Positions 17-30,247 of a DNA stretch of 34,624 nucleotides are shown piece by piece. Both the position numbers and the translations under genes were made by a program. The DNA lies in assembly GCA_020053945.1 (NCBI GenBank), contig JAGVME010000094.1, forward strand, positions 1 to 34,624, given 5' to 3'. Source of the stretch: Gammaproteobacteria bacterium (GTDB taxonomy: Bacteria; Pseudomonadota; Gammaproteobacteria; Ga0077554; Ga007554). The notes under the pieces are model-generated. The model searched no databases. It was not told the DNA's origin and saw nothing but the letters and a program-made list of their open reading frames with translations. Position 1 is the stretch's first letter, and each line of letters begins with the position of its first letter.

Positions 17-735
17 TTGACAAGCATTTCCCGAAATGGAACTATCGCGCCATTCCGGCAGAAGGCCGTTTTCGGTAAGTTATGTTTGGCCAAATCCTAT
101 GTGGATCTGGACAGTTTTACCATCCCACCTGACTTATTCGATGTGATCTCGGCGGCGCATGCTTATCAGTATGGCGTCGTCCCCTATGGGCGAGAGGGTG
201 AGTGGTTGCAGGTGGTTGTCCCTGATCCCTTTGATCTTATGCTGCCCGAGCATTTAGAGCGCCTGAGTGGGCGGCGCGTGAAATTGTATGTGAGCAGTGC
301 GAAAGCAATTTCAGCGGTATTGAAACGGAGTGAGGGTAGTTATGAGGTATTGAAAGGTGTTTCTGAAGATTTCAAATTAGCTATCGTCAAGGAGGGCGAG
401 GATGGCAAGGAGCGTTATATACCGCTGGACGCGGATGTGGAGGATTCTACTAGCCCGGTGATCAAGCTGATCAATAGCATGCTCTCGGCGGCTATTCAAA
501 AGCGCGCCAGCGATGTGCATATTGAAATCTATGAAAGTGGCATCTCTGCCAATTACCGGATTGACGGCGTGCTTTACCCCGCGACAGACATGCTTGACCG
601 TCGGCATCACAGCGCACTGGTTTCTCGTCTTAAGGTAATGGCCGAACTGGATATTGCCGAAAAACGGATTCCGCAGGATGGGCGCTTTAAGTTGCGCTTC
701 AGTGCGCGCGACATTGATTTCCGTGTTTCCATTCT
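17..735 (+). pseudogene. GspE/PilB-type secretion/pilus assembly ATPase, 3'-truncated at a junction with a Tn3 transposase fragment
   Basis: ORF contains typical GspE/PilB text (SPVIKLINSMLSAAIQKRASDVHIE...YRIDGVLYPA...RLKVMAELDIAEKRIPQDGRFKL...DIDFRVS) but stops before the Walker A region; sequence switches to transposase coding at about 735. 5' end/start codon uncertain (track start is TTG). Confidence 0.75.
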
Positions 736-1142
736 TTCGTGAACTCGGCCGGGTGGTCAGGACACAATTCCTTTTGAAGTACATCAACGACGTCGAGCTC
801 CGGCGCACCATTCACGCGGCAACCAACAAGAGCGAGGAATTCAACAATTTCACGAAGTGGCTGTTCTTCGGCGGGGAGGGCATTATTGCCGAAAATATCC
901 GCCACGAGCAGCGCAAGGTCATCAAGTACAACCAGTTGGTCGCCAACATGGTCATTCTGCACAACGTCCAATGGATGTCGCGCAAGCTCAAGGAAATGCA
1001 GAATCAGGGCTATCCCATCGACGAGAACATCCTGAAAGGCTTGTCGCCGTACAGAACCAGCCACATAAACCGATTTGGCGACTACATGCTCGATCTGCAC
1101 CGCAAGGCGCCACCTATCGATTACAAGATTAATTTCGATTAA
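736..1142 (+). pseudogene. Tn3-family transposase, C-terminal fragment only
   Basis: ELGRVVRTQFLLKYINDVELRRTIHAATNKSEEFNNFTKWLFFGGEGIIAEN...KYNQLVANMVILHNVQWMSRKLKEM...LSPYRTSHINRFGDYMLDL matches the conserved C-terminus of Tn3-family (DDE_Tnp_Tn3) transposases; only ~135 of ~1000 residues present. Confidence 0.85.
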
Positions 1143-1279
1143 AAATCAAATGATTAATGCCATTTCTGCGAAATTTTAAGGAATCCCGGCCGACCCTCAC
1201 GTTTGCTCGGCAGCGGCTTTCAGTCCGCTGCGTGCAGCGTCGCATTGTTTGCAGCCGGGCGAATACAACAACTCGATTT

Positions 1280-1699
1280 TCATGACCCACCTATTTTGAG
1301 TGTGCTCGATTCCAGTGCAGCTAGGATCGGGCAATCATCGAGCGGTCCACTCTCATTGGTGCAATCCGCGATAAGGCTATCCAACGCCGCAGACATGGCG
1401 CGCATGGCTTTGATTTTTTGTTCCAGTTGCAGTTTTTTCTCGATGGCGGCTTTACGGACATCGTTGCAACATGCGCTGTCCTGTGTGCGCAGCAACAAGA
1501 ACTCCCGAATTTCCGCCAAGGTGAAACCGCATTGCTGGGCTTGCTTGATGAAGCGCAGCCGCCGTACGGCATGTTCGTCGTACAGCCGGTAACCGCTGCC
1601 GCTTTTACGCGTGGGCATAATCAGCCCCTCGATTTCGTAGTAACGTAGCGTATCGACGCTGACGCCGGAAAGAGCCCCGAGCTTGCCAATAGTAAACAT
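1280..1699 (-). CDS. MerR-family metal-responsive transcriptional regulator (ZntR/PbrR/CadR-like)
   Basis: MFTIGKLGALSGVSVDTLRYYEIEGLIMPTRKSGSGYRLYDEHAVRRLRFIKQAQQCGFTLAEIREFL HTH; C-terminal Cys pattern (ACC...ADC...DDC) typical of metal-binding MerR proteins. Internal ATG chosen over the longer track ORF. Confidence 0.85.
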   Translation of the reverse strand: MFTIGKLGALSGVSVDTLRYYEIEGLIMPTRKSGSGYRLYDEHAVRRLRFIKQAQQCGFTLAEIREFLLLRTQDSACCNDVRKAAIEKKLQLEQKIKAMRAMSAALDSLIADCTNESGPLDDCPILAALESSTLKIGGS

Positions 1700-1794
1700 C
1701 ACGTACCTCGCTGCGTGCATGCCTCAATGACTAAGGCCATAGAACAGCCCCAGCAATTCCTATGCTGAAAGAATTTCCGGGGCCATTTCCTAGG

Positions 1795-2061
1795 TTAGAT
1801 AGTCACGCCCAAACCTGCGGTTCGCAGTTTCTTCTCATCAATACCGCGACCCGCGCAACAGTCGGCCAACTTGCCGTCAATGGCCACGGCGGGAATCGAA
1901 CGTATGCCGAGCGCCTTGGCGCGCTTTACGACTTCGATGCTCTTCATATCGAGCACGGTCACGTCGCAAGACGGACACGCCAATTTACGGACCAATTGCA
2001 GCGCTTCCTCACACACGGCACAACCGGCGCTAAAGACCTCTACTTTACGTTTCGTCGTCAT
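1795..2061 (-). CDS. small thioredoxin/glutaredoxin-like protein
   Basis: VEVFSAGCAVCEEALQLVRKLACPSCDVTVLDM...ALGIRSIPAVAIDGKLADCC: CxxC redox motif and cis-Pro of the thioredoxin fold; same strand as and upstream of merR-like gene. Confidence 0.7.
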   Translation of the reverse strand: MTTKRKVEVFSAGCAVCEEALQLVRKLACPSCDVTVLDMKSIEVVKRAKALGIRSIPAVAIDGKLADCCAGRGIDEKKLRTAGLGVTI

Positions 2062-2314
2062 GGCTTGGCTCCTTTAATTTGGTTTGATTTCGCGTTTTTG
2101 CCGACCCCACTCAAACTTTGCGGGTGAATACTGTGTTGATCGGGACCAAACCCATGCTAAACCCTGGAGGGTACTCACGAGTCAAGAGCTGAGATATGAA
2201 ATCACCCGTTGCCGCAAATATATGTGCATTACCGGGAAGGGAATGATCCGAGGATCAGTTGGACACTTTCGGAGCACTGCTGGCTAAATCAAGGCTTTAC
2301 ATTAATTCTATATT

Positions 2315-2336
2315 TCCATTATTTTAGAATAATGGA
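2315..2336. promoter_or_regulatory. probable ArsR operator palindrome
   Basis: TCCATTATT-TTAG-AATAATGGA, perfect 9-bp arms, 33 bp upstream of the ArsR-fusion start codon; AT-rich inverted repeats of this sort are typical ArsR/SmtB sites. Confidence 0.55.
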
Positions 2337-2368
2337 GTAAAATGTAAATTTCAACGGGAGATTTAACA

Positions 2369-3724
2369 ATGGACACAAAAAAGGTTCTTTCTGCCTTGGG
2401 CGCGCTGGCGCAAGAGTCGCGCCTGGCCGTGTTTCGCCTCCTGGTGCAGGCCGGTCCTGAGGGGATGGCGGCTACCAAGATCAGCGAACACCTCGGTGTC
2501 CCATCCTCGTCCCTGTCGTTTCATTTGAAAGAAATGGCACATGCCGACCTGGTGACATCACGCCAGGAAAGCCGCTTCGTCATTTACTCCGCGAACTTCA
2601 AGACGATGACGGGACTCGTTCACTTCCTGACAGAAAACTGTTGCGACGGCACTCCCTGCGTGCCGGTTTATATCCCTGCCGGTCCCCTTAACGTCCTATT
2701 TTTATGTACGGGCAATTCCGCGCGCAGCATCATGGCCGAAGCTATGCTCAATACGTTGGGCAGAGGACAGTTTCGTGCCTACAGTGCCGGTAGCCATCCG
2801 ATTGGCGCTATCAATCCGTTTGCCTACGAGCAAATCAAAAACCTTAAATATCCCCTGGGCGATTTGCGCAGCAAAAGATGGGATGAATTCGCGGTTCCCG
2901 GTGCGCCACATATGGACTTCATCATCACCCTCTGCGACGACGCCGCCGGTGAAGACTGCCCGCGCTGGCCTGGTCATCCGGTGACGGCGCATTGGGGATT
3001 TCAGGATCCGGCGGCTTTTGAAGGCACGGATGCAGAAAAACAACGGGTCTTTGCCAAGGTGTCCCGGGAAATCAAGAACCGGCTGGACATCTTTTCCATA
3101 CTGCCCTTTGAAAAGCTCTCACGTATCGCCATCAAACAAGAGCTCGACCAGATCGGTGCTCCCCGTGTACCGAGTCCACTTCCTCAACAGGCAACCATCA
3201 CCACCAAAAATACCCGCCGGGCAGACAAGGTACACACTGTGCTCTTCTTGTGCACCGGCAATTCCGCGCGCAGCATCATGGCCGAAGCGCTGGTCACGAT
3301 CCTGGGCAAGGGACGTTTTAAAGGCTTCAGCGCGGGCAGCAAGCCCGGCGGCAAAGTCAATCCGTTCGCGATTGAACAAATCAAGAACTTCGATCCTGCT
3401 TATCCGACAAGCGAGATGCGCAGCAAGAGCTGGGATGAGTTTGCACGGCCGGATGCGCCGCACATGGATTTCATCATTACCGTCTGCGACAACGCCGCCG
3501 CCGAAACCTGTCCGTACTGGCCAGGGCATCCTGCCACCGCGCACTGGGGATTTGAAGACCCGGCTGCGGTAAAAGGTTCTGACGAAGCTAAACGCGCCGC
3601 TTTTAAGCAGATATTCAACGAAATTACGCACAGAGTGCGTGCGTTTGTGGCGTTGCCGATGGCGTCAATGGATGACGATGCGATCCGGCAAGCCACCCAG
3701 AAAATAGGCGGGATCTCCGTATGA
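2369..3724 (+). CDS. ArsR repressor fused to two tandem LMW-PTP-type arsenate reductase (ArsC) domains
   Basis: N-terminal ArsR wHTH with C91-C92-xxxx-C97 (ENCCDGTPC); then two ArsC domains each with LFLCTGNSARSIMAEA P-loop and the distal ITxCDxAAxExCPxWPGHP Cys pair. Confidence 0.93.
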   Translation: MDTKKVLSALGALAQESRLAVFRLLVQAGPEGMAATKISEHLGVPSSSLSFHLKEMAHADLVTSRQESRFVIYSANFKTMTGLVHFLTENCCDGTPCVPVYIPAGPLNVLFLCTGNSARSIMAEAMLNTLGRGQFRAYSAGSHPIGAINPFAYEQIKNLKYPLGDLRSKRWDEFAVPGAPHMDFIITLCDDAAGEDCPRWPGHPVTAHWGFQDPAAFEGTDAEKQRVFAKVSREIKNRLDIFSILPFEKLSRIAIKQELDQIGAPRVPSPLPQQATITTKNTRRADKVHTVLFLCTGNSARSIMAEALVTILGKGRFKGFSAGSKPGGKVNPFAIEQIKNFDPAYPTSEMRSKSWDEFARPDAPHMDFIITVCDNAAAETCPYWPGHPATAHWGFEDPAAVKGSDEAKRAAFKQIFNEITHRVRAFVALPMASMDDDAIRQATQKIGGISV

Positions 3725-3843
3725 CGACGCAGGCACGCCGTTTAGTGGCCGAAGGCCTGGGAACCGCACTGTTGGTGGCGGTGGTGGTGGGCTCCCCATC
3801 TTCGGCTTGGCTACTGCACTCATCACGTGAGACTCAGGCGTAG
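3721..3843 (+). pseudogene. truncated MIP/aquaporin N-terminus of an ars operon
   Basis: ATG overlapping the arsRCC stop; translation MTTQARRLVAEGLGTALLVAVVVGS then diverges ([15 protein letters not shown]). First 25 aa resemble the N-terminus of ars-linked aquaporins; rest missing. Confidence 0.5.
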
Positions 3844-5106
3844 TGCAAGCGCTGCTAATGTCACTGCCAGCACAGGGGCAGTCAGTGCAACACCCACCTT
3901 GAAGTAATAACCCCAAGTGATCGTCATGCCCTTGCGCGCCAGCACATGCAACCAGAGCAGTGTGGCCAGCGATCCGATGGGGGTGAGCTTGGGCCCGAGG
4001 TCGCAGCCAATCACATTGGCGTAGATCATCGCGTCCTTGACCACACCGGTTGCATTCGTGGCATCAATGGAGAGCGCACCCACCAGCACCGTAGGCATGT
4101 TGTTCATGGCCGACGATAGCAGCGCGGTGAGAATGCCCGTCCCGAAAGCTGCGCCCCATACACCTCCTTGTGCGAAGTAATCGAGCAGCCCGGCGATGTG
4201 TTCAGTGAGACCCTCGTTGCGCAGGCCGTAAACCACCAGGTACATGCCAAGTGAAAAAATCACAATCTGCCAAGGCGCTTCTTTGAGCACCTTGCGGGTA
4301 GAGATCACATGGCCGCGCGCCGCCACATGCAGCAGGATCAGCGCGCCCGCTGACGCTACAGCGCTGACCGGCACACCGACATGTTCCAGCCCGAAAAAGC
4401 CAACCAGCAGCAGCGCCAATACCCACCAACCCGTCTTGAAAGTCGCGCTGTCAAGAATCGCCTCACGCGGGTTTTTTAGTTGCATCACATCGTAGTCTTT
4501 CGGGATGTCGCGGCGAAAGAACCATATCAACATCGCCAGACTGGCAGCGACGGCCACGATGTTGACCGGCACCATAATGGCGGCATACTCGGTGAAGCCA
4601 ATCTTGAAGAAATCGGCTGAGACGATGTTGACCAGATTGGAGACGACCAGTGGCAGGCTGGCGGTATCGGCAATAAAGCCAGCCGCCATCACGAAGGCTA
4701 GCGTCGCCGCCGGACTGAACCTGAGCGCCAGCAGCATCGCCATGACGATCGGTGTTAAGATCAGCGCCGCGCCGTCGTTGGCGAACAGTGCCGCTACGGC
4801 CGCACCCAGCAATACGAAAAAAGCGAACAGCCTTCGCCCGTTCCCGTTACCCCAACGCGCCACATGTAGCGCCGCCCACTCAAAAAAACCGGCTTCATCA
4901 AGCAGCAGGCTGATGATGATGACGGCGATGAACGTGGCTGTGGCGTTCCAGACGATATGCCAAACGGCGGGGATGTCATCGACATGCACCACGCCGAATA
5001 GCAACGCCACAACAGCGCCGGCGGTTGCACTCCAGCCAATGCCCAGTCCACGCGGTTGCCAGATGACCAGTACGATGGTGGCGATAAAAATTAGAAAAGC
5101 GGTCAA
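3823..5106 (-). CDS. arsB: arsenite efflux membrane protein ArsB
   Basis: 427 aa multi-spanning protein with ArsB/ion-transporter superfamily text ([89 protein letters not shown]). Confidence 0.93.
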
Positions 5107-5291
5107 TATTAGCTCAGTCCTTGCTAGGGTTGAAGATATCCGCGTTGTTGGTCAGCTGCTCAGCCAGCCCATGTTAACACCGTTTGCTGCGCAGTTACTG
5201 GGAGCAGCGGCGGCGACCTTGCTGTTTTTTGGCTGTGTCCGACTATCGACCACAGAAGCAGCAGAATGAATATCAACATCGCTTCAACATT

Positions 5292-5319
5292 ACTTCGTAT
5301 AATACATATTATGTTAAAT
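5292..5319 (+). other. dif-like XerC/XerD recombination site
   Basis: ACTTCGTATAA-TACATA-TTATGTTAAAT: 11-6-11 architecture; right arm identical to the XerD arm of E. coli dif (TTATGTTAAAT), left arm close to the XerC arm (..TTCGTATAA / GGTGCGCATAA). Confidence 0.8.
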
Positions 5320-5419
5320 AATACATGCGTTCGAAATTTAATCCAGAGGGATGTTTGCTTTAACCACCGCCCTGTTTATTTGACAAGCCCCAGGGGAATA
5401 TGCTAAAAAATTAACAATC

Positions 5420-5815
5420 ATGAGTATGTATGCCCGAAAGATTATCAGTTTATTTTTAGCGCTGGCAATAATGGTAATCCCGGTGCGGGTTGCTTTTTCT
5501 GAACCCATTACCCCTATCAGCCCGAGTTCTAGCACGGCACTCCCGTTGCCTAATGCAATGACCACACATGGCCATGACTGCGAGGGTATGATGGGTGCCC
5601 CTGACAAAACTCCGTGCGGGAAGATTAGCAATAATACCTCCGATACCCCCAATCATTGCCCGGGTGACGCGCATTGTTGCATTGTGTTGCTTTCCTCTCT
5701 CTCTGATACTACGCATACCGTTCCAGGCACACCCCGCAGTACCCTCTTAGTGATATTTACTGGCATTATCCCCCCTACCGCAACAAAACCCCCTCGTCAT
5801 AACCTCTTAGGTTAA
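5420..5815 (+). CDS. small exported Cys/His-containing protein, CopL/DUF2946-like
   Basis: Signal-peptide-like N-terminus; THGHDCEGMMG, NHCPGDAHCCIVLLSS and a C-terminal proline-rich PP...KPPRH tail as in CopL/DUF2946-type copper-linked proteins; directly upstream of cus genes. Confidence 0.5.
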   Translation: MSMYARKIISLFLALAIMVIPVRVAFSEPITPISPSSSTALPLPNAMTTHGHDCEGMMGAPDKTPCGKISNNTSDTPNHCPGDAHCCIVLLSSLSDTTHTVPGTPRSTLLVIFTGIIPPTATKPPRHNLLG

Positions 5816-5931
5816 AACCCGTATACTGGCTTGCTTGCCTGATTGTGCTTGCAGAAAGCACGTGTATTTGTGGAGTATGGACATCCACGGTGGCCTTGAT
5901 TGCAATCCAACCTTTACTAGGAAGCGCAAAC

Positions 5932-6597
5932 ATGATCGAAATTATCCCAAATTGGCATCCGATTTTTGTGCATTTCACAGTCGCGCTTTTCAGTATTGCC
6001 GTGGCGTTTTTTCTTCTGGCAGCCCTATTGCCGAAACATAAATGGCATGGACAATGGCTCACTGTTGCGCACTGGAATTTATGGACCGGCGCGGCGATTT
6101 CACTGTTCACGGCTACTGCAGGATGGCTTGCCTTTAACAGTGTCAATCATGATACCCCTTCCCATGAGGCAATGATTGAACATCGCAACCTGGCATTGAT
6201 AACACTGGCGGTGTTTTTACCCATTGCGATATGGGCACTGGCGCGCTACCGCGCAGGTAAACCAGTGCAAATGGTATTTCTGGCGGCATTGCTGGTTGCC
6301 CAAGGGCTGTTGTTGTCCACCGCTTGGCACGGCGCGGAGTTGGTATACCGTTATGGGTTAGGGGTAATGTCATTGCCGAAAAAAGAAGGTGACGGGCATG
6401 CGCACCAACATAGCGGTGACAGCGCGCATGGGGTGGATACCGCACCACACACTGATACGCCCACACCCCAAACATCAGGGACACAGCCGCCGCCAACGCA
6501 CAATGAGGGGGATGGCCATGCGCATGATGAAAAAAGGGTGGCGCCCGAAAACCCCCCTGGCCATGTGGATGACCCAGCCCGTCCCCATAGCCACTAA
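5932..6597 (+). CDS. DUF2231-type four-helix membrane protein with His-rich C-terminal tail
   Basis: MIEIIPNWHPIFVHFTVALFSIAVAFFLLAALL... hydrophobic DUF2231-like core followed by GDGHAHQHSGDSAHG...GDGHAHDEK...PHSH. ATG at 5932 with an AGGA upstream preferred to the 5845 start. Confidence 0.7.
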   Translation: MIEIIPNWHPIFVHFTVALFSIAVAFFLLAALLPKHKWHGQWLTVAHWNLWTGAAISLFTATAGWLAFNSVNHDTPSHEAMIEHRNLALITLAVFLPIAIWALARYRAGKPVQMVFLAALLVAQGLLLSTAWHGAELVYRYGLGVMSLPKKEGDGHAHQHSGDSAHGVDTAPHTDTPTPQTSGTQPPPTHNEGDGHAHDEKRVAPENPPGHVDDPARPHSH

Positions 6598-6624
6598 TTT
6601 TTAACGACTGAAAGGAACACATTA

Positions 6625-7143
6625 ATGGACAAAAAAATATTCGGCGGTATCGTAATGGTGTTAACACTCACCGCCTGTGGCCCATCCAGCACATCTTCCC
6701 AAACCCCCGGCGGCACCCCTCCTCCGGAAAAAACCATTTCCACGCTTACCGGTGTAGATGTGGTGCGCCCGCACAATGTGCAGCAAATCGCGGAAGGCGC
6801 GCAGCTCTATCAACAGCATTGCGCGAGTTGCCATGGCGCCACAGCGGAAGGCAACCCTGAATGGCGCAAGGCATTGGCGGAAGGAAAACATTTGCCGCCC
6901 CCCCTCAATGGCACCGGGCGCGAATGGCATAGCTCAAGAAACGAGTTGCATAACCATATCAAGTACGGCAGTAAATTTGGCAAGGGTAATATGCCGCCCT
7001 TCCAAAATGCTTTGACGGATGCCCAAATCACCGCGGTGATTGCATGGTTCCAATCATTATGGTCAGACCAGCTCTATGCGGAATGGCTGACTAAACACAC
7101 GGTGGGCAGTGTATTTGTTGATGAAGCCTATAAGAAGCAATAG
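6625..7143 (+). CDS. c-type cytochrome, probable lipoprotein
   Basis: Lipobox-like LTLTACG at N-terminus; single CxxCH (QHCASCHGATAEG) and distal Met (GNMPPFQNALTDAQITAVIAWFQSLW). Confidence 0.88.
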   Translation: MDKKIFGGIVMVLTLTACGPSSTSSQTPGGTPPPEKTISTLTGVDVVRPHNVQQIAEGAQLYQQHCASCHGATAEGNPEWRKALAEGKHLPPPLNGTGREWHSSRNELHNHIKYGSKFGKGNMPPFQNALTDAQITAVIAWFQSLWSDQLYAEWLTKHTVGSVFVDEAYKKQ

Positions 7144-7152
7144 GAGCCATCA

Positions 7153-8508
7153 TTGAAACGTTTATATTCTATGGCCATGGCATGTGTGTTGATGCTGGTA
7201 TGGCAGATGCCCGCCGCACAGGAAAGTCCTAGTGTCGCGGGAGAGCGAAGCGAGGGGCTCAGGATGCCGGAAGCGACTGCCGCGGCAAACGAGACGATTA
7301 CATTAAGCCTGGATGCCGCCGAACGCTTGGCGTTGCGGCATAATCCATTGTTGGCGCAATCCCAGGCTGAAATTGAAATAAGCCGCACGCGGGCGCTTTC
7401 TGCCGGTCAATTGCCTGATCCGCAAGTGCGTTTCGGCGTGCAGAACGTGCCCATCGACAGCCTCGCATTGAACCGCGATGAAATGAGCATGGTTACGTTG
7501 GGCGTCACGCAGATGTTCCCGCCTGTTGGGAAGCGCGGATTGATGCAGCAAAGCGCGCACACCGAAACGCTCAGTGCCCAGAGCAGATACCGCGATACCC
7601 AGGCGCGGCTACGGCATGAAGTGCACATGGCGTGGCTGGATGTTTACTATCAGGAACGTGAACTGGCCACGCTACGGGCAAGTTATGAATTACTCGACCA
7701 AATTGTGCAGGTGGCGCACGCCCAATACCGTAACGGGCTGGCGCAGGAAGCCGATGTATTAAAAGCGCAACTGGAACGGGATGATTTACGCGAGCGCGAA
7801 GAAAACATTCAGGCTGTACGTAGCGTGGCACTGAGCCGTTTGGCGCGGCTGGTGGGTATGTCCAGCGCGAATATTACTGTAACAACTGAGCTACCCGTAG
7901 CACCGACTATCCATACCGACAATGAACTGGCACAAACACTGGCGCAACATCCACAAGTGGCGGCGCTGGATGCACAGATCCGCACGGCAGAACTGGACCT
8001 GGCGGTGGCACGGCGCGATTATTATCCCGAGTTTGGTTTGGAGGCGATGTATGGTTATCGCGCCGCCCGTGATATGGGCGGCTCAAAAGTGCCCGATATG
8101 ATTTCGGCGGGCGTGGTAATGAGTGTGCCGTTGTGGACTGCCCACCGCCAGGATGCCCGCGCCCAGGAGCGTCAGGCGCAGTGGCTGGCGCTGCGCTATC
8201 AGCGTGATGATTTATTGTTGCAGTTAAATGCCGATGCGCGTGCGCGTTATGCGGAATATACCCGCATTAAATCACGGCTGGCACTGCTTGAAAACACGCT
8301 GTTGCCGCAGGCGGAACAAACGGTGAGCGCCCTGCTCGCCGCGTATCGCACCGGCAAAACTGACATGGCAAGTGTGTTGCGTGCACGCCAGGTGAGCCTG
8401 GATTACACGTTGCGGATGTGGCGCTTGCGTACTGATTTCTGGATCGCCACCGCTGAATTGAATTATCTGGGTACCACTATTACAGAGACATCTGGCCATG
8501 AACACTAA
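7153..8508 (+). CDS. cusC: TolC-family outer membrane efflux protein (CusC/CzcC-like)
   Basis: OEP repeats (AERLALRHNPLLAQSQAEIEISRTRALSAGQLPDPQ; YPEFGLEAMYGYR; TGKTDMASVLRARQ), directly followed by RND adaptor and pump. TTG start in track; ATG at 7171 also possible. Confidence 0.88.
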   Translation: MKRLYSMAMACVLMLVWQMPAAQESPSVAGERSEGLRMPEATAAANETITLSLDAAERLALRHNPLLAQSQAEIEISRTRALSAGQLPDPQVRFGVQNVPIDSLALNRDEMSMVTLGVTQMFPPVGKRGLMQQSAHTETLSAQSRYRDTQARLRHEVHMAWLDVYYQERELATLRASYELLDQIVQVAHAQYRNGLAQEADVLKAQLERDDLREREENIQAVRSVALSRLARLVGMSSANITVTTELPVAPTIHTDNELAQTLAQHPQVAALDAQIRTAELDLAVARRDYYPEFGLEAMYGYRAARDMGGSKVPDMISAGVVMSVPLWTAHRQDARAQERQAQWLALRYQRDDLLLQLNADARARYAEYTRIKSRLALLENTLLPQAEQTVSALLAAYRTGKTDMASVLRARQVSLDYTLRMWRLRTDFWIATAELNYLGTTITETSGHEH

Positions 8509-9922
8509 AAAAATTACCTTGTTAGCCGGTGTTGTCCTGGCAAGCGTCGCCCTTGGCATGGCAGCGGGTTGGTTGCTCAAGGAGAATTTTAAAGATACTT
8601 CACCATCTGATGTCACCATGCCACCCAAAGAAAAAAAACCGCTGTTCTACCGTAATCCGATGGATGCTTCCATTACTTCTCCTGTGCCGCAAAAAGATAA
8701 CATGGGAATGGATTATATCCCTGTGTATGCGGACGAGAAATCCGACGTTCAGGAGGAGAACAAGATTCTTTTTTACCGCAACCCGATGGATCCCAATATC
8801 ACTTCGCCCACGCCGCAGAAAGATAATATGGGCATGGATTACATACCGGTGTATGCCAACAAAATGACAGCCACAGGCAGCGTGGACATTGATCCCCGTG
8901 TGGTGCAAAACCTGGGCGTGCGTACCGCGGTGGTGCAGCGCCAGTCATTTTCCACCACCATTGATACGGTCGGTACGGTGGCGATTGACGAACGGGGAGT
9001 CAGTTTCTTTAATCCAAAAATTAGTGGTTGGGTTGAACGTGTGTATGTAAAGGCATTGGGTGATTCCATACAACGTGGCCAGTTACTGGCAGAAATTTAT
9101 GCGCCCGAACTGGTCAGCGCGCAGGAAGAATTTCTCGTGGCGCTCAATGGGGTTAAGCGTTTTGCCGACGCTCCGCTATTGAAAGACAGCCAATCCTTAC
9201 TCGAAACAGCGCGTGCACGGCTGCGGCTGCTGGATATGTCAAATGCCGATATCGAAGCCCTTGAGCGTAGTGGGCAAGGACGCCGCACCATCAAACTCTA
9301 CGCGCCACACAATGGCATTGTCACAGAATTAAATATGCGCGAGGGAGGTTACATTACACCGGATACCCGTCTTTATAGCCTCGCCGACCTGTCACGCGCC
9401 TGGGTAATTATGGAAATTTATACCGGCCAGATGGCATTTGTGAAGCCGGGTAATCCGGTAACACTGCGCACCGCGTCTATGCCAGGACGTGAATGGCGCG
9501 GGCGCATTGATTATCTTTATCCCACACTTAATCCACAGACCCGCACTGTGCAGGCGCGACTGGTATTTGACAATCCCGGCAATACGTTGCGCCCCGGCAT
9601 GTTTGTCAATGCCAGCATTCAGTCTACACCCAAGGCATCGGCACTCGCCGTACCGCGCGAAGCACTACTACGCACCGGCACACGCGATGTGGTGATGGTG
9701 GCGCTGGGCGCAGGACGCTTTCAACCCGTGACGGTGCGCACTGGCGCTGAGAACAGTGAACTCGTGGAAATCTTGGAGGGACTGGAGGCCGGTCAACAAG
9801 TAGTGTTAAGCGGACAATTCCTGCTGGATGCTGAGGCCAGCTTCAAAGGAGGCATGGATCGCCTTGAAGGAAACAATACCGGAACGCCCATTCAAGATGA
9901 TCATGCCGAGCATCAACAATGA
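8498..9922 (+). CDS. cusB: RND periplasmic adaptor CusB-like, with two tandem N-terminal heavy-metal-binding domains
   Basis: [27 protein letters not shown] and [27 protein letters not shown] followed by HlyD/CusB adaptor body ([41 protein letters not shown]). Confidence 0.93.
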
Positions 9923-12900
9923 TTAGCGCCATCATCGACTGGTCTTTGCGTAATCGCGTTCTGGTGTTGCTCGCCACGCTCGCACTCACACTGTGGGGCG
10001 TTTATGCCGTGCAGAAAACGCCAGTGGATGCGATTCCTGATCTTTCTGACGTTCAGGTGATTATCAAGACCAGCTTCCCCGGTCAGGCACCGCAGGTGGT
10101 GGAAGATCAGGTCACTTACCCGCTCACTACGACGCTGCTGGCAGTGCCGGGCGCCACGACAGTGCGCGGCTATTCATTCTTCGGCGACTCGTTTATCTAC
10201 GTGCTGTTCAAAGACGGCACCGATCCCTATTGGGCGCGCTCACGCGTGCTGGAATATATCAATCAGGCGCAATCGCGTTTGCCACAAGGCATTACGCCCA
10301 CACTCGGACCAGACGCCACTGGTGTGGGTTGGGTGTATGAGTACGCGCTGGTGGATCGCAGCAATCAGCATGACTTATCGCAACTGCGTTCACTGCAGGA
10401 CTGGTTTATAAAATTCGAATTGCAACGTCTACCGGGTGTCGCGGAAGTTGCAACGGTGGGCGGCATGGTGAAACAGTACCAGGTCGAAGTTGACCCCCTC
10501 AAGCTGCTGGCCTATGGCATTACTCTGCCCCAAGTGGAAGCCGCTATCAGGCGCGCCAACAGCGAAACCGGCGGTTCGGTAATCGAGATGGGTGGCGCCG
10601 AATACATGGTGCGCTCAAAAGGCTATCTGCGCTCGATCGCTGATCTGCGTCAAATACCCTTGAGCGTGTCTGCCAGCGGCACACCCATACAACTGGTCGA
10701 TGTCGCCAACATTCAACTTGGCCCGGAGTTGCGGCGTGGCGTGGCGGAACTGGATGGACAAGGTGAGGTAGTCGGCGGCATTGTCGTGATGCGTCACGGC
10801 AGCAACGCGCAGGATACCATTGCCCGCGTTAAGGAAAAACTCGTCGCATTGAAAAGCGGACTCCCTGCCGGGGTGGAAATTATTGAAACCTATGACCGCT
10901 CGGCACTGATTAATCGCGCTGTCGCTAACCTTAAAGAAAAATTGCTGGAAGAATCACTGGTGGTGGCGCTGGTGTGCCTGATATTCCTGTTTCACCTGCG
11001 TTCGGCGCTGGTCGCCATTATCAGCCTGCCGGTGGGCATTCTCACGGCGTTTGTTATCATGCACCAGCAAGGTATTAACGCTAACATCATGTCGCTGGGT
11101 GGCATTGCAATTGCGATTGGCGCGATGGTGGATGCCGCGATTGTCATGATCGAAAACATGCACAAACATCTGGAAAGAGCACGAGCATCCGCGCCTGCCC
11201 AAATAGACTATTGGGCGACAGCACGCGCTGCCGCGCAGGAAGTCGGGCCCGCCTTGTTTTTTTCGCTGCTGATTATCACCGTGTCATTTTTACCGGTGTT
11301 CACACTGGAAGCACAGGAAGGCCGCCTATTTGCCCCGCTCGCCTATACCAAAACGTACGCCATGGCGGCCGCAGCAGGGCTGGCCGTTACTCTGGTGCCC
11401 GTGTTGATGGGGTACTTAATCCGTGGGCGCATCCTGCCCGAACACAAAAATCCGCTGAATCGCCTGTTGATTGCGCTCTATCAACCGTTGATCGACGCGG
11501 TGCTGCGCTTTCGTGTACTCACGGTGATCATCGCACTGCTGTTGCTGGCAACCATTATCTATCCTTTGCAACGCCTGGGATCAGAATTCATGCCTGCACT
11601 GGATGAAGGCGACCTGCTTTACATGCCCATCACCCTGCCCTCGATTTCCATCGGCGAGGCGGCGCGCATTCTGCAACAAACCGATAAAATGATCAAGCAG
11701 ATACCCGAAGTCAAACGTGTCTTCGGCAAAGCCGGACGCGCTGAAACTGCCACTGACCCCGCGCCGCTATCAATGTTCGAAACCGTGGTGCAACTCAAGG
11801 ATCCATCCGAATGGCGTCCCGGCATGACACTCGACAAACTCAAGGAAGAACTCAATAACAGTGTACAAGTTCCGGGTCTCACTAACGCCTGGGTAATGCC
11901 AATCCGCAACCGCATCGACATGCTCGCTACCGGCATCCGCACGCCCGTTGGTATCAAGGTGGCAGGGCCGGATCTGGCGGGCATCGAACGCGTCAGCAAG
12001 GACATAGAAGCTGTCATCAAAAAACTGCCAGGCACGCGTTCTGCCTTCGCCGAGCGCGTCACCGGCGGACGTTATATTGACATTGAAGTGGATCGTGCGC
12101 TGGCGGCGCGTTATGGCCTGAATGTGATGGATGTGCAGGATATGATACGCACCGCCATCGGTGGCGAGAACATTACCACCACGGTGGAAGGACGCGAGCG
12201 TTACCCCGTTAATCTGCGCTACCCGCGTGCGCTGCGCGACTCGGTCAGCGCGCTGGCCGCCAGCCGCATCGCAACACCTTCAGGTGCGCAAATCCCGCTC
12301 GGCGAACTTGCCACATTGCGCTTGACGGATGGCCCGCCGGAAATCAAAAGCGAAAATGCGCGCTTGAATGGCTGGATCTACGTTGATATCGCCGATATCG
12401 ACGTGGGCGGCTTTGTCAGCAACGCCAAGACTGCCGTAGAGCAACAGGTAAAAATCCCACCCGGCTACTCCATCGCCTGGTCCGGCCAATATGAATACAT
12501 GGAACGCGCCAAGGCCAAACTCAAACTAGTCATTCCCCTCACGCTGGGCGTCATCGTGCTGCTGCTTTACCTGCATTTTCGCAATGGCATGGAAGTGGCG
12601 ATGATCGTTATCAGCCTGCCGTTCGCGCTGGTCGGCGGCGTCTGGCTGATCTATCTGCTCGGCTATCAACTCTCGGTGGCGGTGGGCGTAGGTTTTATCG
12701 CACTGGCAGGCGTGGCTGCGGAATTCGGCGTGATCATGCTACTCTACCTTGATCAAGCCGTAAAACATCAACAAGCCGAAGGCCGCATGAACTCCTGGGC
12801 CGACCTCAAGGCCGCGATTATCGAAGGCGCCGTGATGCGCGTGCGCCCCAAAATGATGACTGTGGCCGTCATCATCGCCGGCCTGTTGCCCATTATGCTC

Positions 12901-13041
12901 AGCCACGGCACCGGCTCGGAAGTCATGCAACGCATTGCCGCCCCCATGATTGGTGGTATGATTACGGCACCCCTGCTCAGCCTGTTGGTCATTCCTGCGC
13001 TGTATGCACTGTGGAAAAAGCGCGTATTGAAATTAAAATGA
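9919..13041 (+). CDS. cusA: heavy-metal efflux RND transporter CusA-like
   Basis: 1040 aa [97 protein letters not shown] is Cus-like; ATGA overlap with cusB. Confidence 0.96.
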
Positions 13042-13100
13042 ACCCCCTCTATACACTTCAAACAACATCCATTACCATTTCACCCCAGGAGGCTACACCC

Positions 13101-13454
13101 ATGAAAAAAGCACCGCACATAATACCTGCTATCGTACTGCTCAGCTTGCCCTTATTCACATCAGCCCACGCAGATGATATGGGTGGCATGCCCGGCATGC
13201 ACGCAAATAAACAGGCCGCCATGGCATCGCACAAAGGCCAAGGCACCGTGAACAAGGTCGATGCGGCCGCCGGTACCGTTAACCTTACCCACGACCCGAT
13301 CAAAAGCCTGGGATGGATGGGCATGACAATGGATTTTAAAATGAAAAGCAAAGCCAATCTTGATAAGATTAAAGTGGGCATGAAAGTAAACTTTGAAGTC
13401 ACCAAAGAACCCGACGGCACCTTTGTCATCACCACCATCACTCCTCTTAAATAA
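13101..13454 (+). CDS. cusF: periplasmic Cu/Ag chaperone CusF-like
   Basis: Signal peptide, GQGTVNKVDAAAGTVNLTHDPIKSLGWMGMTMDFKMKSKANLDKIKVGMKVNFE: canonical CusF fold text with W-MxM site; ATG at 13101 after AGGAGG. Confidence 0.93.
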   Translation: MKKAPHIIPAIVLLSLPLFTSAHADDMGGMPGMHANKQAAMASHKGQGTVNKVDAAAGTVNLTHDPIKSLGWMGMTMDFKMKSKANLDKIKVGMKVNFEVTKEPDGTFVITTITPLK

Positions 13455-14894: not shown

Positions 14895-16118
14895 TCAGGA
14901 CGCGTCATCCAGACCCTGCACTGGTTTCATGACACCCCATTTTTTACAGCTTGGACATTGCCAATGCAGCGACTTTCCGGAAAACCCACATTGCCCACAT
15001 TGATAAAGAGGCCGCTCCTGCAACAATTTTTTTATCGCCGTATTGAGCGTCAATAGTTGCCCTCGCGTCTTGTCTTCACTTCCTACCAGATACAAGTCCA
15101 CCAGGCACGCCAACCCGGATAAGGTAGGTTGTTTATTAAGATGTTCAGCGACAAATACCGCTGCGTCCCCCTCCCCTTGCTGGTCACGCAACAACTCAGC
15201 GAATGCGATTAGCGGCGCCACGCCCGCGTATTTCTGCAAAATCTGCTTAAGGTATCCGGCTATTTCGTGTGGGGTACCGAGCTTATTGTAACAATCCACG
15301 ATGCGGGGGATCACTTCCGCCAGGTAATCCGCATCCTGTTCCTCAACATTTTTGTAAGCCCGCAACGCTGACACATAATGTCCAGACAGCATGTCAATAT
15401 CACCCTGAAGGATGCTGGCGCGCACGCAACCCGGGTCAGACGCTAAAGCACGTTTAATTTCCCTGTTCGCTTCATCAATATCATGTTGCTGCCGGGCCTG
15501 TTCGGCGAGTTCACAATGATATTGCGCGATAAGGTTATTTAACTTTTTTCCTGTAACAGTTTCCAGTTTAGATGCGACATGGATGGCTTTTTCCCATTCC
15601 CGCTCCTGTTGGTAAATGTCCCGCAAGGAACGCAGCGCGGGCACCATTTGTGGTGTACAGTCCCCCCCGACCAATGGATCGCCCGCATGTGTACCAGGTG
15701 TTTCAGTTAGTTTTAAAAACAGGCTTTCGGCACGGTCAAACCAACCCGCACGCAAGTAATCTTCACCTAACTCCAGCAAAGCCTGGTTACATTGATCGGG
15801 GGTCAGGGTGGGGCGGGCTATAAGATTTTGATGGATGCGGATGGCGCGGTCCACTTCACCGCGCCGACGGAACAGGCTACCCAAGGCAAAGTGGGTTTCG
15901 ACGGTTTCGGTGTCGACCTCAAGCATTTTGACAAACACTTCAATCGCTTTGTCAGGCTGTTCATTGATAAGATAATTCAGTCCTTTAAAATAATCAGGGT
16001 ACAACAAGCCCTGCGCACTTTCTTCCTGTCTACTCCGTTTATCACGCTTGGCAAACCACCAACCAGAGGCGGCGGCAATGGGCAATAACAGCATCCATAA
16101 CCAGGTAGCGTTATTCAA
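14895..16118 (-). CDS. lapB: lipopolysaccharide assembly protein LapB (YciM), TPR + rubredoxin-like metal-binding C-terminus
   Basis: N-terminal [29 protein letters not shown] TPRs, C-terminal [24 protein letters not shown]. Confidence 0.95.
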
Positions 16119-29857: not shown

Positions 29858-30247
29858 ATGACCACTAATCTTCACCCTGCCCTATTATTTGCATTGCGTT
29901 GGACTATCAACACATTGGCTTTATGGGTTGCCAGCTATCTGTTTGTGGATATTTCATTTACCAATGCGGGAGCGTTGTGGGTATCCGGGTTATTGCTGGG
30001 ATTTGCGAATGCCATTATTCGACCGGTGTTGCTGATCCTTACACTGCCCTTATCGGTGTTCACGCTGGGGTTTTTTGTGCTCGTCATCAATGCGTTGATG
30101 CTTTTGCTGGTCGCGTGGCTGGTGCCTGGCTTTAGCGTGGCGGGCTTCTGGACGGGATTTTTCGTCGCACTTTTTATCTCAGTATTCGGGTTTTTTACCA
30201 ACCTGTTTATTGGCATGGGACATGTAAAGATGCAAAAACTGCCTTAG
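29858..30247 (+). CDS. phage holin family 4 / DUF360-type small membrane protein
   Basis: ~129 aa, four hydrophobic segments, GLLLGFANAIIRPVLLILTLPLSVFTLGFFVLVINALMLLLVAWLVPGF signature. Confidence 0.85.
   Translation: MTTNLHPALLFALRWTINTLALWVASYLFVDISFTNAGALWVSGLLLGFANAIIRPVLLILTLPLSVFTLGFFVLVINALMLLLVAWLVPGFSVAGFWTGFFVALFISVFGFFTNLFIGMGHVKMQKLP

Follow-up and report, generated by a model that had tools for sequence, protein, structure and literature searches.

A probable chromosomal dif site between an apparently acquired ars segment and a genus-conserved cus operon

A 28-bp sequence with the architecture of a dif site separates an ars from a cus gene cluster in the DNA analysed here, and the question is what it is doing there. 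An initial annotation of the window, i.e. the whole 34.6 kb stretch, left two options: either the 28-mer is the chromosomal dif, which would put the window at a replication terminus with accessory DNA nearby, or it is the attachment site or scar of a Xer-exploiting element (IMEX or pdif-type module) that carries metal resistance. The first option has held up, as the 28-mer occurs in single copy, is conserved across the class, sits mid-chromosome in two closed relatives and has KOPS of the appropriate polarity around it. We therefore consider it very probable that the 28-mer is the ordinary chromosomal dif of the host; it is a fresh instance of a well-known element.

The full 28-mer, ACTTCGTATAATACATATTATGTTAAAT, is found exactly and on the + strand where the dif architecture had been annotated, and its 28 bp show the 11-6-11 layout with conserved XerC and XerD arms that is expected of a chromosomal dif:

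5292..5319, + strand: very probable chromosomal dif, with the XerC arm ACTTCGTATAA at 5292-5302, the central TACATA at 5303-5308 and the XerD arm TTATGTTAAAT at 5309-5319

With a dif weight matrix built from seven sites (six family sites and E. coli dif) the 28-mer scores 38.8, its own reverse complement 14.7 and the next best site in the window 7.5; the maxima in mononucleotide shuffles of the window range from 2.7 to 11.0. Within the window there is one occurrence of the XerD arm and one of the inner-arm pattern TATAA-N6-TTATG. No further match to the 28-mer with <=3 mismatches was detected in the 34.6 kb, which bears out the annotation on this point, and there were zero such matches in 100 shuffled windows. 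The central TACATA is present also in several related genomes. The XerD arm is, as claimed, identical to that of E. coli dif.

A search of the host genome, which had been proposed as a check, returned one copy of the 28-mer at <=3 mismatches, a single-copy status that holds within the limits of an assembly of 2.14 Mb in 155 contigs, 85.6% complete and with 2.26% estimated contamination; a better second dif could sit in the missing part. The host also encodes the machinery that a chromosomal dif calls for. XerD on contig C115 of the host assembly (G000:C115) passes the NCBIfam equivalog cut-off TIGR02225, XerC on G000:C131 passes TIGR02224, and an FtsK gamma domain is encoded on C132. The XerD gene adjoins a DsbC-like thiol-disulphide frame.

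Comparison with related genomes shows how widespread the motif is. A relaxed dif pattern was found in 33 of 56 related genomes (host included), with a single match in all but two of the 33, and in two other genomes of the genus the dif reads ACTTCGCCTAATACATATTATGTCAAAT and ACTTCGCATAATGTATATTATGTTAAAT. When window positions 1100-5420 were used as query in a class-wide DNA search, around 30 genomes gave short isolated matches at dif. The motif lies at 53.0%, 49.95% and 49.1% of the contig in three single-contig genomes. Two of these, the closed genomes G115 (53.0%) and G181 (49.95%), have a dnaA frame, identified by its translation, at the start of the contig, so that the motif is opposite the presumed origin in both; a position opposite oriC is thus seen in these closed relatives, the host genome itself being fragmented. 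One class member, G044, carries two dif-like sites on separate contigs (C96 and C301), TGCGCATAATAATCATTATGTTAAAT and TGCGCATAATATATATTATGTTAAAT; the extra one might belong to a further replicon or to an element, or be a contaminant.

KOPS converge on dif and >90% of the nearby ones are on the leading strand (PMC5357621). The exact KOPS of the window are as follows:

873..880, + strand: KOPS GGGGAGGG, points to dif
2234..2241, + strand: KOPS GGGAAGGG, points to dif
6156..6163, - strand: KOPS GGGAAGGG, points to dif
11633..11640, - strand: KOPS GGGCAGGG, points to dif
15169..15176, - strand: KOPS GGGGAGGG, points to dif
29875..29882, - strand: KOPS GGGCAGGG, points to dif

The polarity that the annotation had suggested to look for is present, i.e. 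all six point toward dif, which for a fixed site has a chance of 1 in 64, on a small number; both left-hand KOPS (873 and 2234) fall within the acquired DNA. In the compared stretches of G001, G002, G003, G005 and G006, 38 KOPS point toward dif vs 6 away. Genome-wide in the host, the contig strands carry about equal numbers of KOPS among the matches listed, the orientations are mixed within many contigs, and the strand bias is weak in many contigs other than this one, so we read the polarity in the window as support and not as proof. The dif site is usually close to the shift point of GC skew (PMC3025954). Here the skew is -0.024 to the left of dif and -0.040 to the right, with no change of sign, and it is uninformative on the terminus because the left flank measures just 5.3 kb and is mostly acquired DNA. 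The 20.7 kb of backbone on the right (gyrA-serC-pheA-aroA-cmk-rpsA-ihfB-lapAB-pyrF) is mostly transcribed leftward, toward dif, and has a GC skew of -0.053.

The two sides of the 28-mer appear to have different histories. Nothing in the congeners corresponds to the left 5.3 kb, which opens with a secretion/pilus-ATPase frame (window 17-1142) that is broken at ~735, where a Tn3 transposase tail of 118 C-terminal residues abruptly takes over. The secretion ATPase has close matches (66-72% identity) in other family genomes and is absent from both congeners; the first 28 residues of the frame recur, at 96% identity, at the start of another host contig, C23. After the Tn3 tail come an ArsR-ArsC fusion and then arsB. 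The fusion is a single frame of 451 aa (window 2369-3724) that joins an ArsR-type HTH and two LMW-phosphatase-type ArsC domains in tandem; at the DNA level, parts of one ArsC half repeat the other with 71-74% identity. The features nearest to the 28-mer on this side are:

3823..5106, - strand: arsB (Pfam), acquired, with a DNA match to Acinetobacter plasmid arsB
~5156..5269, + strand: 3' fragment of a reading frame (from the sequence) that points toward dif and separates the ars segment from dif

Together with 49 bp upstream (to 5155, within the remaining 3' part of a truncated CBS-domain gene), arsB has 91.9% DNA identity to copies on the Acinetobacter plasmid pR4WN_E10B and two relatives, a similarity that points to transfer of 3823-5155 between distant bacteria. 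The plasmid copies of arsB have the CBS-domain gene as a neighbour, and also a transposase of the Tn3 family. The plasmid homology ends at 5155, where the CBS gene is cut, 137 bp short of dif. The annotation had placed the 28-mer precisely in the gap after arsB, which needs correction: the truncated tail of the CBS gene (to ~5155) and the 3' fragment (~5156-5269) intervene. The fragment has no homologue among the compared loci, and nothing like transposon inverted repeats was seen at the ars ends.

On the right, the 28-mer is followed by a large operon:

5420..13454, + strand: orf5420-DUF2231-cytochrome c-cusC-cusB-cusA-cusF operon, genus backbone by synteny

The genes orf5420, DUF2231, cytochrome c, cusC, cusB, cusA, cusF and orf13486 are collinear in both congeners (39-97% protein identity), where the cus operon is likewise near pyrF-lapB-lapA-ihfB, and the operon was therefore not inserted at dif; the idea of a cus module inserted beside dif is ruled out by this synteny. 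The earlier picture of a site between two metal modules is thus half correct, since there is an acquired ars segment on the left, while cus on the right is a genus-conserved operon and no separate inserted module. Only the left side (the ars genes, the Tn3 transposase tail and the broken secretion-ATPase gene) looks acquired. DNA similarity to the congeners stops at or just upstream of orf5420. A TTGACA element ~60 bp to the right of dif is common to the three genus genomes, as judged by eye, and the DNA beyond it differs in each.

Synteny with the congeners ends between dif and the cus promoter. There is thus a break at dif, as would be seen at an insertion boundary, but what adjoins dif is variable in the family as a whole, and the break does not imply a mobile boundary. 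In both congeners dif is in a place other than here. In genome G002 the genes next to dif encode a TPR protein and a der-like GTPase (identified by eye), with der abutting dif, while in G001 (C28) a Z1-domain gene is on one side and a PPK2/copper-resistance cluster on the other; der has no adjacent dif in the host (C146) or in G001. The differing place of dif in the congeners and the absence of dif beside der in the host speak against the chromosomal dif reading. The copper cluster of G001 (multicopper oxidase, CopB, DUF2231, CusF, P-type ATPase, PPK2) differs from the cus operon described above. G003 and G005, two members of one genus, have common genes on both sides of dif, and compared with G003, G005 has ~24 kb (left) and ~10 kb (right) of extra DNA directly at dif, with a single dif remaining. 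Acquired DNA next to dif is found in several family members, and the dif context differs family-wide. As altered neighbours and insertions beside dif are usual in the family, they are no argument for a mobile element here. A rather unlikely possibility is that dif has changed neighbours repeatedly in the genus and family (three congeners, three unrelated contexts) and that rearrangements and insertions may preferentially occur at dif or in the adjacent DNA, possibly with Xer involvement.

The mobile-element readings call for another dif, and none turned up in the window or in the incomplete host genome. An integrated IMEX carrying ars, with the true dif absent from the assembly or further left, would agree with acquired ars/Tn3 DNA adjoining the 28-mer and with synteny that stops between the 28-mer and the cus promoter. 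But one would then expect two flanking dif-like sites and a site additional to the chromosomal dif, and neither is seen: the window holds no partner (next matrix score 7.5), nor does the 85.6% complete host genome. Both arms of the 28-mer are near consensus, KOPS orientation switches at it, viral contigs contain no exact match to it, and a differing dif context is common in the family. No genes of a Xer-exploiting element were recognised and the cus side shows no boundary of an element, which together with the missing partner leaves the second option of the annotation unsupported; we regard the IMEX as very unlikely. A further reading, that the 28-mer is the pdif site of a dif module with ars or cus, is suggested by the 91.9% identity of arsB to copies on Acinetobacter plasmids, where such modules are common (PMC6449649). 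However, a pdif module needs two inversely oriented Xer sites as bounds and just one is present, the matching ars genes on pR4WN_E10B adjoin a Tn3 family transposase, the ars homology ends before the 28-mer is reached, and cus is genus backbone. A plasmid search with 69 bp around dif gave many weak dif-like matches, none with good flank identity among the matches listed, and we find this reading hardly conceivable. An assembly artefact would be of a different kind, namely terminus DNA of one organism joined to ars DNA of another near a common dif. The fragmented and slightly contaminated assembly, the left arm that the congeners lack and the abrupt secretion-ATPase/Tn3 junction all fit with this, but the 3' fragment and the CBS-gene DNA lie between arsB and dif, so the switch to known foreign DNA is not on the 28-mer, and 28 bp would presumably be short as an overlap for a false join. 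Such an artefact seems highly improbable.

If the 28-mer is the chromosomal dif, it would serve when homologous recombination has joined sister chromosomes to a dimer: having loaded at polar KOPS, FtsK would move terminus DNA toward the 28-mer, its gamma domain would activate XerD, and XerC/XerD would swap strands at the site, so that the two chromosomes come apart. That this 28-mer is bound and cleaved and that it resolves dimers is a prediction. The ars segment would be DNA acquired within the terminus zone, and the cus operon old genus DNA that probably came to lie beside dif when the terminus region was rearranged or lost DNA; deletion, inversion and other events that may have joined dif and cus are indistinguishable in fragmented assemblies. 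The replication terminus of the host genome, apparently gammaproteobacterial, can thus be placed on this contig, and the idea that a Xer-exploiting element carries metal resistance here can be dropped as misleading. That close relatives differ in what flanks dif adds a little to the picture of how plastic the terminus region is.

It is useful to compare the locus with known Xer sites. The IMEX attachment sites of Vibrio filamentous phages and of the gonococcal genomic island (PMC5357621) are similar in as much as a dif-like site lies beside acquired DNA, but our locus has neither a second site nor recognised element genes, and neither of its arms is degenerate. With Acinetobacter pdif modules (PMC6449649) it has in common a dif-like site near a resistance gene, one that is also present on Acinetobacter plasmids; it differs from them in that it lacks an inverted pair of sites and its ars homology stops short of the site. 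Compared with E. coli dif, the XerC arm and the central region of the 28-mer are unlike, while the 11-6-11 layout, the XerD arm, the single copy, the converging KOPS and a host that encodes XerC, XerD and FtsK gamma are common to both.
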